Shown here one piece after another: positions 4,162 to 35,607 of a DNA stretch of 35,829 bases. The notes under the pieces were generated by a model. The model had not been told where the DNA came from. It did not search any database and saw only the letters and a program-made list of their open reading frames with translations. The position numbers and the translations under genes were made by a program. Source of the DNA: Bacteroidales bacterium (GTDB lineage: Bacteria > Bacteroidota > Bacteroidia > Bacteroidales > WCHB1-69); the NCBI GenBank assembly GCA_031253655.1, contig JAIRVY010000130.1:1-35829 (forward strand), read 5' to 3'. Each line of letters opens with the position of its first letter. Position 1 is the first letter of the stretch.

Positions 4162-6363
4162 TCAATATCTGTTTACCTCGTATTCTAATTTCACTCCGAA
4201 ACGCTCAAAAACAGAGTTTTCAATTTTTTCTGCCAGAGAAATTATCTCTTTTCCAGTGGCGTTTCCATAATTTACCAAAACTAATGGTTGTGCGGGAAAA
4301 ACGCCGGCATCTCCTTCGCGAAATCCCTTCCAGCCGGAAAACTCAACCAGTTGTGCCGCCGCCATCTTTACATAGCCTTCATTCGCCCCGAAACATACCA
4401 ATTGAGAGTACCGTTTCTGCAAAACATCAAATTGTTCTTTGTGTACCATCGGATTTTTAAAAAAACTTCCAGCAGAACCAATCTCCTCAATGTCAGGAAG
4501 TTTTCTACTTCTAATTTCTAAAACTTTGTCCCTAACAAGTCCCAAAGTTAATTTACTCTGTTTTTGCAATTCATCACGTAAACCTTTATAAGTGAGATTA
4601 TAATTCTCTTTTTTTGCCAAACGGAAAACCACAGCGGTAATTATTACCCTATTTTTCAGTTCATTCTTAAATACTGAATCTCTATAACCAAATTTACATT
4701 CGGCGACAGATAATACTATATATTTTCCGGTATTTACTTCAATGGCGCGAACTTCTTTGATGGTATCTTTAATCTCAGTACCGTACGCGCCAATATTTTG
4801 CACAGGACAACTGCCCACTTTTCCCGGAATTCCTGCCAAATTCTCCACGCCATAAAACCCTCTTGTTACACAATAATCTATAAAGTCTTCCCAATTTTCT
4901 CCTGCTTGCACTTCAATATCAACAAAATCGTCCTTCTCTTCCGAAATGATAATCCCCTTTGTTTTAATGTGAATCACCGTTCCGTTAAAATTTTCAGTGA
5001 AAAAAATGTTGCACCCGCCCCCAAGGAGTAAGAACGGTGTTTCAAATATTTTTTTCTCAAAAAGATAGCCAAATTCCTCCTCTTTATTAATACAAATAAA
5101 GTCGTTGCAAGTGGCTTCTATTTTAAAAGAGTTAAAATTTGTTAATGAAAAAGGCTTATATACACACTGCTTAAATCTGTTTCCGCGTTCTTCAAAGTTG
5201 GTAAATTGGTCGTAACTTGCGGCGGCAGGAGATAGCAGACAAATTTTTCCTTTTCGAGTGTGTGTAATAGCAAAACTGACGATTCTTTGCATATCATTTT
5301 CAATAACTCCTTTCGTAGCCCATTCGGTTTTCATTCTATTTCCGGCAGGGCCCATATACACAACGTTTTCTACCGGATGACTATGCAAATAATCATACAA
5401 AATACTGTAATCTATGCCTCTGTCAAACCCTCCGAGAATCAAAGTGTTAACATTTTTTAAAGTTTTTAAGGCGTAGATGGTGGCTTCGGGAACCGTTGAG
5501 ATAGAATCGTTGTAGAAAAGAATGCCGTGTCTTTCTCCCACAAACTCCTGACGGTGTTCTAAGGGAATAAATGAGGTTATCGCAAGAGTAATTTTATCTT
5601 CTGAAATTCCAAGCTGTTTGCAGGTTTCAATAGCTGCTTCATAGTGGGTTTTGTTGGAAAAAGTATGAAAATCTCGATTTAATTTATTTTGTGTTAACAG
5701 TTTGGTAATCATTCCATCATCATTGTTATAAATAAACGAATCATTTTCGTTTTGATATTTTGCAATGTTGAATTTTGCCTCACAGTAATTCGAAAAGGAG
5801 GTAAAGTGATCTAAATGTTCCTGATAGAGATTCAGCAGAACGGCGATGTGGGGTGAGTGTTTAACATATTCTAACTGCTGCGCAGAGAGTTCTGCAACAA
5901 CAATAGTTTCTTCATCAATATTATCTATAATATCGAAAAATGGAATCCCGATGTTGCCTGCCAAAATCGCTTTCCTCCCGCACACCTTGAGAATATGATA
6001 AATCAGGGAAGCAGTAGTACTTTTTCCTTTTGTACCTGTTATTCCAAGGGTTTGTTTACCAAAATATTGCAAAAAAAAGGAGGTTTGAGAACTTATTTTT
6101 TCAGTATCAATATCTTTTAAATTTGCTAAACTTATTCCGGGTGTCTTCAAAACAATATCGTAAGCATTCAAATTATTCAAATAGTCGTCCCCACATACAA
6201 TAGTTGTTTTATCATCTTGAATATCAACATCATTCTTATCGAGAATAGTAATATGATTTTCGGGTAAATATTTTCGTATAAAGTGAATAGAGGATTTCCC
6301 CTCTCTCCCAAAACCGAGGATAGCGATTTTTTTATCTTTCAGAAGTTTGGTAATTTCGAACAT
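4162..6363 (-). CDS. murD-murB: MurD-MurB fusion: MurD2-like Mur ligase fused to UDP-MurNAc dehydrogenase
   Basis: A 733-residue cytoplasmic peptidoglycan-precursor enzyme. Residues 1-405 are a Mur ligase: Rossmann start KKIAILGFGREG, ATP loop GTKGKST (110-116), Glu158, His183, carbamylatable Lys197, Arg271, and the C-terminal SPAAASYDQF motif. Residues 407-733 are type I MurB, which reduces UDP-GlcNAc-enolpyruvate to UDP-MurNAc with FAD and NADPH. They include LLLGGGCNIFF, GIPGKVG, the catalytic set Arg561, Ser633 (GSAGSFFKNP) and Glu729. In the ligase half the usual NDSKATN is NDSIST (285-290) and the usual GG-DGK lysine is Arg315 (GGFDRG), as I recall for Xanthomonas MurD2, which adds L-Glu. 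I chose the ATG at 6363. In-frame starts at 6426 (TTG) and 6417 (ATG) add a non-conserved leader and crowd the promoter. Confidence 0.9.
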   Translation of the reverse strand: MFEITKLLKDKKIAILGFGREGKSSIHFIRKYLPENHITILDKNDVDIQDDKTTIVCGDDYLNNLNAYDIVLKTPGISLANLKDIDTEKISSQTSFFLQYFGKQTLGITGTKGKSTTASLIYHILKVCGRKAILAGNIGIPFFDIIDNIDEETIVVAELSAQQLEYVKHSPHIAVLLNLYQEHLDHFTSFSNYCEAKFNIAKYQNENDSFIYNNDDGMITKLLTQNKLNRDFHTFSNKTHYEAAIETCKQLGISEDKITLAITSFIPLEHRQEFVGERHGILFYNDSISTVPEATIYALKTLKNVNTLILGGFDRGIDYSILYDYLHSHPVENVVYMGPAGNRMKTEWATKGVIENDMQRIVSFAITHTRKGKICLLSPAAASYDQFTNFEERGNRFKQCVYKPFSLTNFNSFKIEATCNDFICINKEEEFGYLFEKKIFETPFLLLGGGCNIFFTENFNGTVIHIKTKGIIISEEKDDFVDIEVQAGENWEDFIDYCVTRGFYGVENLAGIPGKVGSCPVQNIGAYGTEIKDTIKEVRAIEVNTGKYIVLSVAECKFGYRDSVFKNELKNRVIITAVVFRLAKKENYNLTYKGLRDELQKQSKLTLGLVRDKVLEIRSRKLPDIEEIGSAGSFFKNPMVHKEQFDVLQKRYSQLVCFGANEGYVKMAAAQLVEFSGWKGFREGDAGVFPAQPLVLVNYGNATGKEIISLAEKIENSVFERFGVKLEYEVNRY

Positions 6364-6426
6364 ATTTTTCAGCGTGCAAAAGAAAGAAAAAAACGATAAT
6401 TTCAAGGTATTTTTCATATAAAACAA

Positions 6427-14840: not shown

Positions 14841-17552
14841 ATGAAAAAAATCTTACTATTATTAATGGGTGCGTTTCTAACTTTTACATTAAGCGCACAA
14901 GTATCTGAAAATTTTTCCGACTATACCGTGGGCGGAAAAATAGCACAACAGGCCCAAGCAATGGGTAGAGATTATTGGACCACTTGGTCTAATGCGCCTG
15001 GAGGGCCGGAGGATGGCAAAATTGCAGAAATTAGTGGAAATAAAGTCGGGCATTTTACCTATGGTAATGACCAGATTTTATTGTTAGGGAACAAAACTTC
15101 AGGGATATGGATTTTTTCCTGTAAAGTGAATGTACCTGCAGCAAAAAGAGGATATATTAATCTACTTGCCGACTTTGCGGGTACGGAAAGCATTTGGGCT
15201 TTAGAAGTTTATTTTAACAAAAATGGAACAGCATCCGGGACAGGGTCTATTAACGCTGGTGGACAAAATGCAGCTACCTTCCCATTTACCCACGATGCGT
15301 GGACAAATGTTAGCGTAACCATTGACCTCGATAATGACGTTGCCAAACTTGACGTTAATGGAACTATGGTAAAACAATGGACATATTCTTTAGGTGCAGA
15401 TGGTACAGGGGCGCCCAGAGTTATTGCCGTTTTTGATATGTATCCACCCGATGCTTTAGCTAATTCAGAGTTTTATGTTGATGACATCGTTTTTAAGAAA
15501 GCGCCCCTTTACGAAACCGGTTTTGATGATAAACCCAGTGGTTCCTATGTTGCGCAATCTTACCCGAATTGGTGGACTACTTGGGAAAATAGCCCCGGAA
15601 CAGCAGAAGATGCGTTAATTACAAATGAGCAATCTTCTTCGCCGAATAATTCAGCCAAATGTACTTTTGCATCATCCGGTGGTACTGACTTGGTTTTTAA
15701 GGCAGGTAACCAAACTTCCGGAACTTATTTTATTGATTTCGATATGTATATTCCTACTAGTGGGCGTGCATTCTTTAATTTATTGCATATTTTCAATGGT
15801 TCAGGAAGTGAATGGGCAGTTGGGGTCTATTTTAATGTATCTGCAACAGGAATGCCTCCGGGCACAAATATTCAGCAAAATGGGGCTTTAACTCCATTCA
15901 CATTCCCATTTGCCACCTGGTTTCCTGTTTCAATAATAGTTGATTTGGATAATGACCAAGCCAAAATGAAAATTAATAATGTTGAACTTCTAACCTGGCA
16001 GTTCAGCCTTACCGAAAATGCGGGCCCCGGTTTACGGCAATTAGCAGCTGTGGATTTTTATCCCCCACAAGCCGGCTCAGTATTCTATATAGATAATTTT
16101 GTGTTTGATAAAGCCGGAGAGGCAACTGCACCCATTATTGGTGTTACACCTTCATTTATAACCGAAGTTATTACCCCCGGCGAAAACCTTACTAAAACTA
16201 TTACTGTTGCAAATACAGGTACCAGCATGGGAGAATATTCAAGCTGGATAAAATATGAATTTGAACCTACCACTGGAACTCAAACCTTCACTTTGTCAAA
16301 TAGTAATGAGCCAAACGCTAATGGATTAGGCTATCCTGATGCTTGCACATTGGAACTTGCTACTAAATTTACAGGAGATGAACTTTGTGGTAAAATTGGC
16401 ACATCCATTAATAAATTGTCGTACTATTTAGCTGCTGCTGTGGGAAGTAGTAATAAACTTACATTTCGTATCTATGGACCCAACAACACAAATCTACCCG
16501 GCGAAAAGTTGAGAGAGGTTGTGCTTAATAATGCTGTTGTGGGAACGTGGAATATCGTAACATTAACCGATCCGCTTTTGATTGACCTAAGTGAACTTTG
16601 GATATCAGTAGAATTTTATCAAAATGCAGCTACTTATCCAATAGGAGTTGATAATGGTCCACAAAAACTTGGATATAATTTTACTAAAAGAAACGGAGGG
16701 GCATGGACAGGATTTACGCAAACCGAATTTGGTAACTTTTTAGTTACAGCAACTGCACAGGGTGGTGTTGTTCCAGGTTGCTGGTTTAAACTTTCCGGAG
16801 ATAGCAACGGTAATGTTCCTTTGGGTAGTTCCAAAACTTTCAACGCTAACTTTAATACAGCCGGACTTGCAGACGGATTATATAAAGCTAAACTTAATGT
16901 AAAAACTAATGATGCTACTAATCCGATATTTATTATTCCTGTCGATATTACAGTTGGAACTCCTCCATCTTTTCCAATCATTAATGTAACCCCTCTCGAA
17001 TTTTCTGCTACTATTAAGGAAGATGCTGATGTGCTGATAGTTAATAATACTGTTACCATTAATAATACGGGTACCGCTGAAGGCTCCTATACAACAACCG
17101 TTGAAGCCCAAAAACCATGGCTAACTATTGAAGGCGATGCCACAGGCACTGTAGCCATTGATAATACCAAAACTTTTGACGTTGTAATTAATGCCACCGA
17201 CCTTGACACAGGAATCTATAACGGAAAAATTACCGTGGTAACCAACGATGTTGAACATCCTGAGTTTGTAATTGAATGTACACTTACTGTAGAACCCGGA
17301 GTTGGAATCATTACCATAAACGGTGTGGAAACAAAAATATTCCCCAACCCCGCATCTGATTTCGTTACTGTTCAATGCAGTGAGATGATTAACAGCATCA
17401 AAATTATGAACAATATGGGTCAAGTTGTTCGTACTGTTTTTGTAAACAATATCGCTACCCATCTCGATACTTCCAACTTAAGTGCCGGAGTTTATTTCTT
17501 TAAAATTATTACTGATAAAACCACGTTCAGCACTAAACTTATTATTAAGTAA
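14841..17552 (+). CDS. T9SS cargo protein with two LamG-like domains and a C-terminal sorting domain
   Basis: A 903-residue secreted or surface protein of unknown role. The signal peptide is residues 1-19 (ending LSA), with Gln20 first in the mature protein. Residues 20-225 and 226-430 are tandem copies of one beta-rich, concanavalin/LamG-like domain. They share WTTW.N.PG..ED near the start, DLDND.AK in the middle and FY.D..VF.KA at the end. The middle (about 430-700) contains an Ig-like segment, then a unique region. Further Ig/BACON-like repeats share TNDATNPIF/TNDVEHPEF. The last 75 residues are a type A T9SS sorting domain: IFPNPASDFVTV, a GQVV turn and LSAGVYFFKI. No peptidase or glycosidase catalytic motif is visible; binding or adhesion is a guess. 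Confidence 0.85.
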   Translation: MKKILLLLMGAFLTFTLSAQVSENFSDYTVGGKIAQQAQAMGRDYWTTWSNAPGGPEDGKIAEISGNKVGHFTYGNDQILLLGNKTSGIWIFSCKVNVPAAKRGYINLLADFAGTESIWALEVYFNKNGTASGTGSINAGGQNAATFPFTHDAWTNVSVTIDLDNDVAKLDVNGTMVKQWTYSLGADGTGAPRVIAVFDMYPPDALANSEFYVDDIVFKKAPLYETGFDDKPSGSYVAQSYPNWWTTWENSPGTAEDALITNEQSSSPNNSAKCTFASSGGTDLVFKAGNQTSGTYFIDFDMYIPTSGRAFFNLLHIFNGSGSEWAVGVYFNVSATGMPPGTNIQQNGALTPFTFPFATWFPVSIIVDLDNDQAKMKINNVELLTWQFSLTENAGPGLRQLAAVDFYPPQAGSVFYIDNFVFDKAGEATAPIIGVTPSFITEVITPGENLTKTITVANTGTSMGEYSSWIKYEFEPTTGTQTFTLSNSNEPNANGLGYPDACTLELATKFTGDELCGKIGTSINKLSYYLAAAVGSSNKLTFRIYGPNNTNLPGEKLREVVLNNAVVGTWNIVTLTDPLLIDLSELWISVEFYQNAATYPIGVDNGPQKLGYNFTKRNGGAWTGFTQTEFGNFLVTATAQGGVVPGCWFKLSGDSNGNVPLGSSKTFNANFNTAGLADGLYKAKLNVKTNDATNPIFIIPVDITVGTPPSFPIINVTPLEFSATIKEDADVLIVNNTVTINNTGTAEGSYTTTVEAQKPWLTIEGDATGTVAIDNTKTFDVVINATDLDTGIYNGKITVVTNDVEHPEFVIECTLTVEPGVGIITINGVETKIFPNPASDFVTVQCSEMINSIKIMNNMGQVVRTVFVNNIATHLDTSNLSAGVYFFKIITDKTTFSTKLIIK

Positions 17553-33366: not shown

Positions 33367-35607
33367 TTACTGTTGTTTCACAAACTTCATCACGCTTGCG
33401 CCGTTTTCGGAAATTATGCGAACAAAATATACTCCGTTGGTCAACGTAGAGATATCCAATATGGCAGAGTTTCCGTCATTTTGTTCGGCAATTACCTTTT
33501 GTCCCAAGAAGTTAACTACTTCTATCTTATTGAAATCGCTTTTTGCTTTAATAGATATAGTGTTTATTGCAGGATTTGGACGGATGGAGAATGTATTTGT
33601 ATAGTCCTTGATACTCAGTGTGAAAGAAACGTCTCCACATACTTTCTGTACGTCTCCGGTACAAACGGATTCATCAAATACGGGGAGTACGCAGTAACTT
33701 CTGGTATATTCACCGGCTGTTAAACCAGAAATATCAACTTTATATGTTGTGGTAGTGGCTTCACCAATTTCATCTTCTCCCTCAAAGATTTTATATTTTT
33801 GAACTGTTAATCCTCCGGAGGGAGCAGTCCAGGTTACAGCAACTTCTTTTGCTGCTTCGTCAAACACGGCGTTAACACCAGTAACCGGTTTACAAATAGC
33901 ATCGTAGCACGCTGCCATCTCTTTGGTTACAGGGGCAGATTCGCCGCCACCTTCACAGGCTACTTTTACGCTCCATGTATAGGCTTTGGTTTTGTCGAAT
34001 GTAATATCTTCAAAAAAAGTAGTGGTAATAGGATTTGGGGTAAGTTTTTCGGTATCGCGGTACACGTTGTAAGCAATTGGGGTTGGAGCCCCGCCACAAT
34101 CATTATGGTAAGTAAAGAACTCGCCCCCAATTAATTCAGCATTAGGACAAGTATATATCAAATCATCATTAGAATTATAGATATCGAATGAACATTCAAA
34201 GTCAGCAGATCCTTCTGCTTCCCAGAAAAAGTTAAGTGTTCCTGTAGGTAGCACAACAAATTTAGTAACCTCTAATACGTCGTTCCCAACAGTAAGAGCT
34301 TCAAGTAAAACTCCACCTTTCATTATTATTATTTGTGACCCCCCCCAGCCATCACCTTCAGCATCACGTAAGACAAATCTAAACATACAGTAATCGCCTA
34401 CGATATGGGTTTTAGTTACTCCTAATGGAATACAAGATTCTGAAAAAAGAGCTGTAATCGTGTAAGTATGTAAACCATTCGGAACGGAATTATGTGTATA
34501 TGAAGTAGTAGTAACGGTTGTTAAGGTTGTGCCGTCATACTCAATCTTATATCCGGTGGGTGACCCAGGGGCAGCGCTCCAGGATAAGTTTACGGTATTT
34601 CCTGTTGAAGTTATGGAAAGGTTTGAAATTGGTTCACAGGTTGGTAATGAGATTGAAGTTTTAAGGCTAAACATTCCTAACTGCATAGGTGTTCCGGATA
34701 CTATTCCCAAATTCGTAGTTGCAGCATTTGTTTTATTGATTTTATACAGAAAGCCATCCACTCTTCCCCAATAGAGTTCATTGGTTTCACGGTCAACTGA
34801 TAATTCCTGAACACTGCCGCTTCCGGTAAGATCAGGTCCTATTTTAGTAAACTGACCGGTTGCCAGATTAACCGTTCCAAACCATAGCGGGCTTGAAACA
34901 TAACCATCTGAAGTAATAGCATAACAAACGCCATCATTATCAATTGCAGCACTCATCGTAGTGGTAACATTTCCCACGTGGGTAAAGTTACCGGTAGTAA
35001 GGTCAATCGTTCCGAAAGAACCTGGGTCCCATTGGAAAGTATATACCAATCCATTGGTAGGATTGTAACACAAACTAACAGCATCACTTGCAACGTTGTT
35101 TTTAATATTTGTCCAGGCACCCGTTTCCATATTAATAGTACCTAATCTGTTAGTACCGGCGCCATAGTCAATCGCATAAAGAGTTCCGTTAATATACTCT
35201 GAAGCCTGAATGGCTCTATTTCCAATAGTACCAACATTAGTTGTAGTTGTTGGTGTGGATAGAATACCTTTTCTAAGAATTTTTGAAGTTTCGGATGCTG
35301 CATAATTAGAGCAATAAAATTCGCTGGTTGGCCCTCTCATCTCTACAACAGGTTCATTGTTAATTGCAGTACTTGTTGCAAATCTGCTCACTCTTTCTAA
35401 ATTGCTTTGCCCGGGTTGTTTTTCACCCTGAATCTTTTTGGGAACTGTCGTAACAATTGGACATTTTCCCGGTACTCCCCAATTTAGTATTGCCTTTGTA
35501 CAATCTGACGAGTATCCAACTGTCAGATTTTTAGCAGGGTCGCAGCTCTGTGCGTGCAAGAAACTGAAACTTGCTATAACAGCAAGTAATAAAATAAAAT
35601 TTTTCAT
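33367..35607 (-). CDS. T9SS cargo protein with propeller-like and fibronectin type III domains
   Basis: A 746-residue secreted or surface protein. The signal peptide is 1-19 (ending LHA), followed by Gln20. Residues about 120-315 carry four or five repeated beta-rich units of the type LYAIDYG....GTIN..TG.W, suggesting a small beta-propeller. A fibronectin type III-like domain spans about 323-402. A Cys-containing domain at 405-505 has DAEGDGWGG, a motif seen in adhesin-type proteins. Two more Fn3-like units follow (about 508-565 and 572-645). The last 75 residues are a type A sorting domain: IRPNPAINTISI, LGQKV and LTNGVYFVRI. No catalytic site is recognised. The domain mix recalls gingipain/hemagglutinin adhesin regions, so adhesion is plausible but inferred. 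Confidence 0.83.
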   Translation of the reverse strand: MKNFILLLAVIASFSFLHAQSCDPAKNLTVGYSSDCTKAILNWGVPGKCPIVTTVPKKIQGEKQPGQSNLERVSRFATSTAINNEPVVEMRGPTSEFYCSNYAASETSKILRKGILSTPTTTTNVGTIGNRAIQASEYINGTLYAIDYGAGTNRLGTINMETGAWTNIKNNVASDAVSLCYNPTNGLVYTFQWDPGSFGTIDLTTGNFTHVGNVTTTMSAAIDNDGVCYAITSDGYVSSPLWFGTVNLATGQFTKIGPDLTGSGSVQELSVDRETNELYWGRVDGFLYKINKTNAATTNLGIVSGTPMQLGMFSLKTSISLPTCEPISNLSITSTGNTVNLSWSAAPGSPTGYKIEYDGTTLTTVTTTSYTHNSVPNGLHTYTITALFSESCIPLGVTKTHIVGDYCMFRFVLRDAEGDGWGGSQIIIMKGGVLLEALTVGNDVLEVTKFVVLPTGTLNFFWEAEGSADFECSFDIYNSNDDLIYTCPNAELIGGEFFTYHNDCGGAPTPIAYNVYRDTEKLTPNPITTTFFEDITFDKTKAYTWSVKVACEGGGESAPVTKEMAACYDAICKPVTGVNAVFDEAAKEVAVTWTAPSGGLTVQKYKIFEGEDEIGEATTTTYKVDISGLTAGEYTRSYCVLPVFDESVCTGDVQKVCGDVSFTLSIKDYTNTFSIRPNPAINTISIKAKSDFNKIEVVNFLGQKVIAEQNDGNSAILDISTLTNGVYFVRIISENGASVMKFVKQQ

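Follow-up and report, generated by a model that had tools for sequence, protein, structure and literature searches.

A MurD2-type ligase fused to MurB in a Bacteroidales genus, and a probable L-glutamate/MurL route in its order

Introduction

Xanthomonas builds D-glutamate (D-Glu) into its peptidoglycan precursors by a two-enzyme route, in which the ligase MurD2 adds L-glutamate (L-Glu) and MurL inverts it, a reaction for which an adenylate step has been proposed (PMC8788868). In MurD2 of X. oryzae (XOO_1320; MurL is XOO_1319), Glu197 and Arg358 replace Asp182 and Lys348 of Escherichia coli MurD; mutagenesis that reverts both residues turns the enzyme to D-Glu, and the K319T substitution makes E. 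coli MurD accept L-Glu (PMC8788868). The published distribution of MurL comprises Gamma- and Alphaproteobacteria and actinobacteria, with low-similarity orthologues in a fungus, cyanobacteria, and an amoeba (PMC8788868, PMC5808125). Here, we analyze a 35,829-nucleotide stretch of DNA from a Bacteroidales bacterium (contig JAIRVY010000130.1 of assembly GCA_031253655.1; the whole stretch is called the window below) that encodes a MurD2-type ligase and MurB in one protein.

Fusions of MurE with MurF and of MurC with Ddl use canonical D-Glu chemistry. As found in Bordetella pertussis (MurE–MurF) and Chlamydia (MurC–Ddl), they resemble the protein studied here in being fused cytoplasmic Mur enzymes, some of them for non-consecutive steps, and differ from it in the enzymes paired (PMC6420597, PMC4803751). 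Verrucomicrobium spinosum likewise has MurB joined to a Mur ligase within one lineage (PMC4803751), but its partner is MurC, the enzyme of the next step, whereas here MurB is C-terminal and its partner is the ligase of step 4.

We conclude that the Bacteroidales fusion is very probably a bifunctional peptidoglycan-precursor enzyme whose ligase half works on the L-Glu/MurL route.

Results and Discussion

The fused frame is uninterrupted, with an ATG start at 6363–6361 and a stop at 4164–4162 (Table 1). An alternative upstream start would be the TTG at 6426; the ATG at 6363 is the one that matches MurD N-termini in the alignment. NCBIfam model TIGR01087 (MurD) covers residues 1–402, with the whole protein scoring 305 bits against a cut-off of 212, and NF000755 (MurB) covers residues 405–732 at 387 bits against a cut-off of 277. 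Alignment with E. coli MurB (131 of 327 positions identical) matches Arg159, Tyr190, Ser229, and Glu325 to Arg561, Tyr592, Ser633, and Glu729. With the catalytic Arg, Ser, and Glu in place, the C-terminal half is an intact type I MurB behind a Mur ligase, as a first-pass annotation made from the sequence had stated. The genome (G000) is a 2.24 Mb draft in 174 contigs, 91% complete, and also encodes MurC, an Mpl-like protein, MurE, MurF, and a MurF–alanine racemase (MurF-Alr) fusion. Profile searches found no second MurB and no second MurD over cut-off in it; the fused copies are the sole ones, which speaks against the possibility, raised at first pass, that the fusion is a paralogue of separate murD and murB genes.

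The first-pass annotation had also picked out GTKGKST, NDSIST, and an Arg in place of the GG-DGK lysine, and named this set as a mark of Xanthomonas MurD2. The motifs are exact (residues 110–116, Ile288, and Arg315), and the set is indeed that of MurD2: MurD2 of X. sacchari, whose gene adjoins an annotated murL, shows GTKGKST, PEHLD, NDSIST, and GGHDRG. Two features go beyond that annotation, the Glu182 of a QEH motif and a deletion of about 30 amino acids in the central domain. Glu182, Ile288, and Arg315 occupy the positions of the Asp, Lys, and Lys of canonical MurD, and Glu182 with Arg315 reproduces the MurD2 specificity pair at E. coli Asp182 and Lys348.

These residues separate two sets of ligases. 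Canonical MurDs encoded in the dcw clusters of Bacteroidales share the fold and the homologous family of the fusion ligase, but all those compared have Asp182/Lys319/Lys348 (E. coli numbering), and those aligned have a GSNGK P-loop versus GTKGKST in the fusion; they occur with MurI or as an extra enzyme in half of the MurL-encoding genomes. Ile319/Arg348 is found in every one of the MurL-linked ligases, fusions, and other family ligases, and Glu182 in each of them save three. A tree built from 63 ligases sets the canonical MurDs apart from a side that holds X. sacchari MurD2, the fusion, and the MurL-linked ligases; the Shimodaira–Hasegawa-like approximate likelihood ratio (SH-aLRT) support for this split is 98 (bipartition of 44 versus 19 rows), in a quick, unrooted reconstruction with E. 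coli and X. sacchari as long branches. From the signature we infer that the ligase half adds L-Glu rather than D-Glu. Separately, three MurL-linked ligases (L123, L138, and L141, two of them from Clostridia) combine Ile319/Arg348 with Asp182 and may be naturally occurring intermediates of the specificity pair.

No murL lies in the window, as noted at first pass; a homologue sits on another contig of the genome (C164, 6076–7284). It was traced via the genes adjoining the closest murD2 relatives: MurL is the upstream neighbor of murD2 in G101 and G122 and the N-terminal half of one protein in G183, all three matching NF041275 (MurL) at 250–267 bits. The G000 protein is 34% identical to the annotated X. 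sacchari MurL over 335 amino acids (E = 6e-50). This homology over most of the length, together with the common motifs GGGKDS, NHQ-SK, SCN, WC-CPKC, and KPFECVG, places it in the MurL homologous family. On NF041275 it reaches 235.9 bits, compared with 836.5 for X. sacchari MurL; the score lies under the equivalog cut-off of 700, and we therefore call the protein a MurL homologue rather than a member by that rule.

Other sources of D-Glu were searched for in the same genome and in its family, of which 104 genomes were surveyed. MurI has no match in G000 and none over cut-off in any of the 104. D-Amino-acid transaminase has none over cut-off in G000, where a single weak match (3.8e-7) fell below it, and was rejected as a D-Glu source on that ground. 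A MurL homologue is present in 94 of the family genomes, among them all 53 of good quality (a few copies are partial), and in four of the five congeners, the negative one being a 53%-complete genome. Some family genomes have a second short open reading frame of about 140–200 amino acids whose match to MurL is confined to the C-terminal third (about 65–90 bits; examples in Table 1). The first-pass annotation had named MurI without MurL as contrary to its possible L-Glu/MurL route; the genome shows the reverse, and the presence of MurL, the absence of MurI, and the Glu182/Arg315/Ile288 signature all favor that route.

The same exclusion runs through the order. Of 198 genomes sampled across about 120 families, 120 have MurI over cut-off, 67 have full-length MurL, none has both, and 11 have neither; one of these 11 carries an incomplete MurL where a contig ends. 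Fisher's test gives p ~ 1e-41 with the genomes treated as independent, which they are not. At least 573 MurL-encoding stretches occur in GTDB contigs; the best 80 come mostly from uncultured Bacteroidales, many of them with names that point to rumen or animal faeces, and from several Clostridia. The route is thus broader than the first-pass annotation held. We found no paper describing MurL in Bacteroidales in the literature searched, though subscription papers might hold one.

The system of this genus resembles the Xanthomonas route in its Glu/Arg/Ile residues and GTKGKST loop (X. sacchari MurD2 being the protein compared), its MurL homologue, and its lack of MurI, and many relatives within Bacteroidales share the murL–murD2 adjacency of X. 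sacchari. It differs in carrying MurD2 as a fusion with MurB, with an unlinked murL and a ligase shorter by about 30 amino acids; in sequence, with identities to X. sacchari of 25% for the ligase and the 34% given above for MurL; and in its Bacteroidales host, which lies outside the published distribution (PMC8788868, PMC5808125).

Several points weigh against assigning the fusion to the L-Glu/MurL route. The genome is 91% complete, and Bacteroidales MurLs score 236–267 bits on a model whose cut-off is tuned to Xanthomonadales. The ligase lacks about 30 amino acids near the adenine site and has lost Asn271, changes that may alter ATP binding. Finally, canonical MurD is also kept, by model score, in 33 of the 67 MurL genomes of the order; the 21 of these that were read (L184 and L219–L238) are all Asp/Lys/Lys, with no MurI over cut-off in their genomes. 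Because half of the MurL genomes keep a canonical MurD, the signature alone is no proof of full pathway replacement elsewhere. None of the three members of this family (f1) in the order sample keeps an additional canonical MurD.

One alternative is that the ligase half is an ordinary D-Glu MurD with a divergent site, supplied with D-Glu by an unrecognised racemase or by salvage, while the MurL homologue has an unrelated role. MurL genomes that keep a canonical MurD without MurI perhaps do have such an unrecognised source. The MurD of Streptococcus mutans, a D-Glu enzyme, has Arg at the Lys348 position (PMC8788868); however, S. agalactiae MurD has Lys at 319 and Thr at 182, where the fusion has Ile and Glu. 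Among NCBIfam ligase models, TIGR01087, the D-Glu MurD model, does fit the fusion best, and a best match of this kind had been named at first pass as a result against MurD2. The match occurs but is uninformative, because X. sacchari MurD2 passes the same cut-off with 298 bits and the model cannot separate MurD from MurD2; a canonical assignment on this basis was rejected. With MurI and MurL together in 0 of 198 genomes, and MurL adjoining or fused to such ligases in many, we regard this alternative as unlikely and retain the L-Glu/MurL route as the better account of the ligase.

The central-domain deletion raises a different question, that of activity. In every fusion examined it removes the GxH of GxHNxxN plus the preceding segment, leaving TIGR01087 positions 239–266 unmatched, and in the aligned fusions the Asn271 position is variable and not Asn, while it is conserved in nearly all other MurD2 proteins compared. 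The MurD half could accordingly be dead, a scaffold or regulator of MurB, with step 4 carried out by another Mur ligase. This seems very unlikely. The genome has no further MurD over cut-off to take step 4, and the ligase keeps the K-loop, Glu158, His183, Lys197, His270, Arg271, Asp286, Arg315, and the C-terminal Arg. Purifying selection acts on both halves, with dN/dS, the ratio of nonsynonymous to synonymous substitution rates, at ~0.1 in the MurD half as in the MurB half (dN ~0.2 versus dS of at least 1.4, saturated in places, among congeners). The AlphaFold2 (AF2) model of the ligase has a predicted local distance difference test score (pLDDT) of 92, its closest solved fold is MurD of Pseudomonas aeruginosa (Z 39.8), and it superposes on ligand-bound MurD over 386 residues with a root-mean-square deviation (rmsd) of 2.4. 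Because the model keeps the MurD fold, we expect the fusion ligase to be active despite the deletion, though its ATP binding may differ.

All six genomes of the genus carry the fusion, at 67–69% identity; one copy (in G295) starts inside the ligase at a contig edge. It is absent from the other 98 family genomes and from the other 197 of the order sample, in which this genome alone is positive; a survey of its distribution, proposed at first pass, thus shows it genus-wide and nowhere else in the family or order sample. An assembly or frameshift artefact of a draft in 174 contigs, which the absence from 98 relatives might suggest, is ruled out for practical purposes by the recurrence of the fusion in five independent congeneric assemblies with other neighboring genes. 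PhoH and acyl-CoA synthetase genes flank the fusion in the window, and neither adjoins it in the congeners. Relatives encode MurD2 and MurB separately, and rarely on one contig. A birth of the fusion from neighboring genes left no trace: the two genes lie far from each other in relatives save G275, which has them as a divergent pair with about 3 kb between them, and the flanks vary among congeners.

Elsewhere in Bacteroidales, several lineages encode MurL and MurD2 in a single frame, with MurL as the N-terminal part (L012, L013, L059, L099, L110, L137, L142, and L150), an arrangement for which we found no earlier report in the literature. The MurD2–MurB and MurL–MurD2 fusions are new arrangements of the MurD2/MurL route. 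Metagenome-assembled genomes of Clostridia have murL adjoining murD2 (L123, L125, L141, L155, and L156), and their ligases form one supported group inside the MurD2 side of the tree. Two MurL homologues on Pseudonocardia plasmids (L288:3959-5359 and L289:3689-5083) lie beside a convergent WD40-repeat gene and possibly have another role, because no murD2 accompanies them.

To examine the fold of MurL, we used a confident structure model of the L079 protein (L079:2379-3587), which is 76% identical to the G000 protein (pLDDT 94.9). Foldseek returned no match at E ≤ 0.001. VIA-align gave QatC at Z 20.7 (316 residues, rmsd 3.7), QueC at Z 13.1, and Cap9 at Z 12.7. The GGGKDS loop and a Cys motif are invariant in 34 MurLs. 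A loop and Cys motif of this kind are carried by PP-loop ATP pyrophosphatases. MurL is thus predicted to have a QatC/QueC/Cap9-like PP-loop ATP pyrophosphatase fold, and the reported need of MurL for ATP-to-AMP conversion and its proposed adenylate intermediate fit this fold, loop, and motif. The likeness suggests that a cell-wall epimerase is akin to 7-deazaguanine or defence enzymes, although identity to MurL is only about 10%, the known functions of QatC, QueC, and Cap9 are nucleoside- or defence-related, and a shared fold does not show function. By sequence, the one match to MurL among solved structures was a short one to TtuA (E 0.08), and there was no PADLOC or Pfam QueC match; DUF6395 was rejected as a match under cut-off. 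No literature naming MurL together with QueC was found.

Away from the fusion, the window encodes two large proteins (14841–17552 and 33367–35607) with C-terminal Por secretion tails, as in cargo of type IX secretion, which fits an origin in Bacteroidota.

Table 1. Coordinates of the fused gene, its domains and signature residues (positions in the window), and of short MurL-like reading frames in other genomes
Feature	Position	Strand	Evidence
murD2-murB, MurD2-type ligase/MurB fusion, 733 amino acids	4162..6363	minus	single open frame; MurD and MurB models over cut-off; kept in 5 congeners
MurD2-type ligase half	5158..6363	minus	TIGR01087, residue table, tree, AF2 model
ATP P-loop GTKGKST, residues 110-116	6016..6036	minus	identical in X. 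sacchari MurD2 and Bacteroidales MurL-linked ligases
Glu182 in QEH (E. coli Asp182, X. oryzae MurD2 Glu197)	5818..5820	minus	alignment, residue table
Genus-specific deletion of ~30 amino acids, ligase central domain	5640..5670	minus	absent in aligned fusions, present in other family MurD2
Ile288 in NDSIST (E. coli Lys319 position)	5500..5502	minus	alignment, residue table
Arg315 in GGFDRG (E. coli Lys348, X. oryzae MurD2 Arg358)	5419..5421	minus	alignment, residue table
MurB half, residues 403-733, type I UDP-N-acetylenolpyruvoylglucosamine reductase	4165..5157	minus	NF000755 and catalytic residues
Short MurL C-terminal reading frames, examples	G256:C12:136046-136522; G257:C31:85260-85583

Proposed pathway and implications

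The fusion would be a cytoplasmic protein with MurB and MurD2-type activities. Its C-terminal half, judged by the intact catalytic residues, would reduce UDP-N-acetylglucosamine-enolpyruvate to UDP-N-acetylmuramic acid; a separate MurC would then add L-Ala, and the N-terminal half, as its signature and genome context suggest, would add L-Glu with ATP. The MurL homologue encoded elsewhere would adenylate the α-carboxylate of L-Glu, converting ATP to AMP, and invert the residue to D-Glu. No glutamate racemase would be needed, because MurL would perform the inversion. Fusion of steps 2 and 4 probably holds both domains in one precursor-making assembly; direct channelling between them is unlikely because MurC acts between the fused activities.

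More broadly, it is likely that Bacteroidales and some Clostridia form a major unreported branch of the L-Glu/MurL route, with MurL–MurD2 fusions in several lineages and the MurD2–MurB fusion in one genus, and that MurL belongs to the PP-loop enzymes of QatC/QueC type and acts by adenylating the glutamate α-carboxylate. If true, this enzyme type would explain the ATP-to-AMP chemistry of MurL. The fold prediction offers a testable mechanism for an enzyme described in 2018 as being without known domains.

A supply of D-Glu is needed almost universally, and MurI serves as a drug target. About one-third of the sampled genomes of the order, mostly of uncultured bacteria, have MurL in place of MurI. 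Annotation pipelines that call such ligases D-Glu-adding MurD are probably wrong, because these genomes have MurL and no MurI. The fusions are natural constructs for asking whether early Mur enzymes form one assembly, and the strict exclusion of MurI and MurL makes the pathway switch testable in many lineages. The Bacteroidales MurL branch, with its own MurL–MurD2 fusions, outweighs the MurB fusion in importance.
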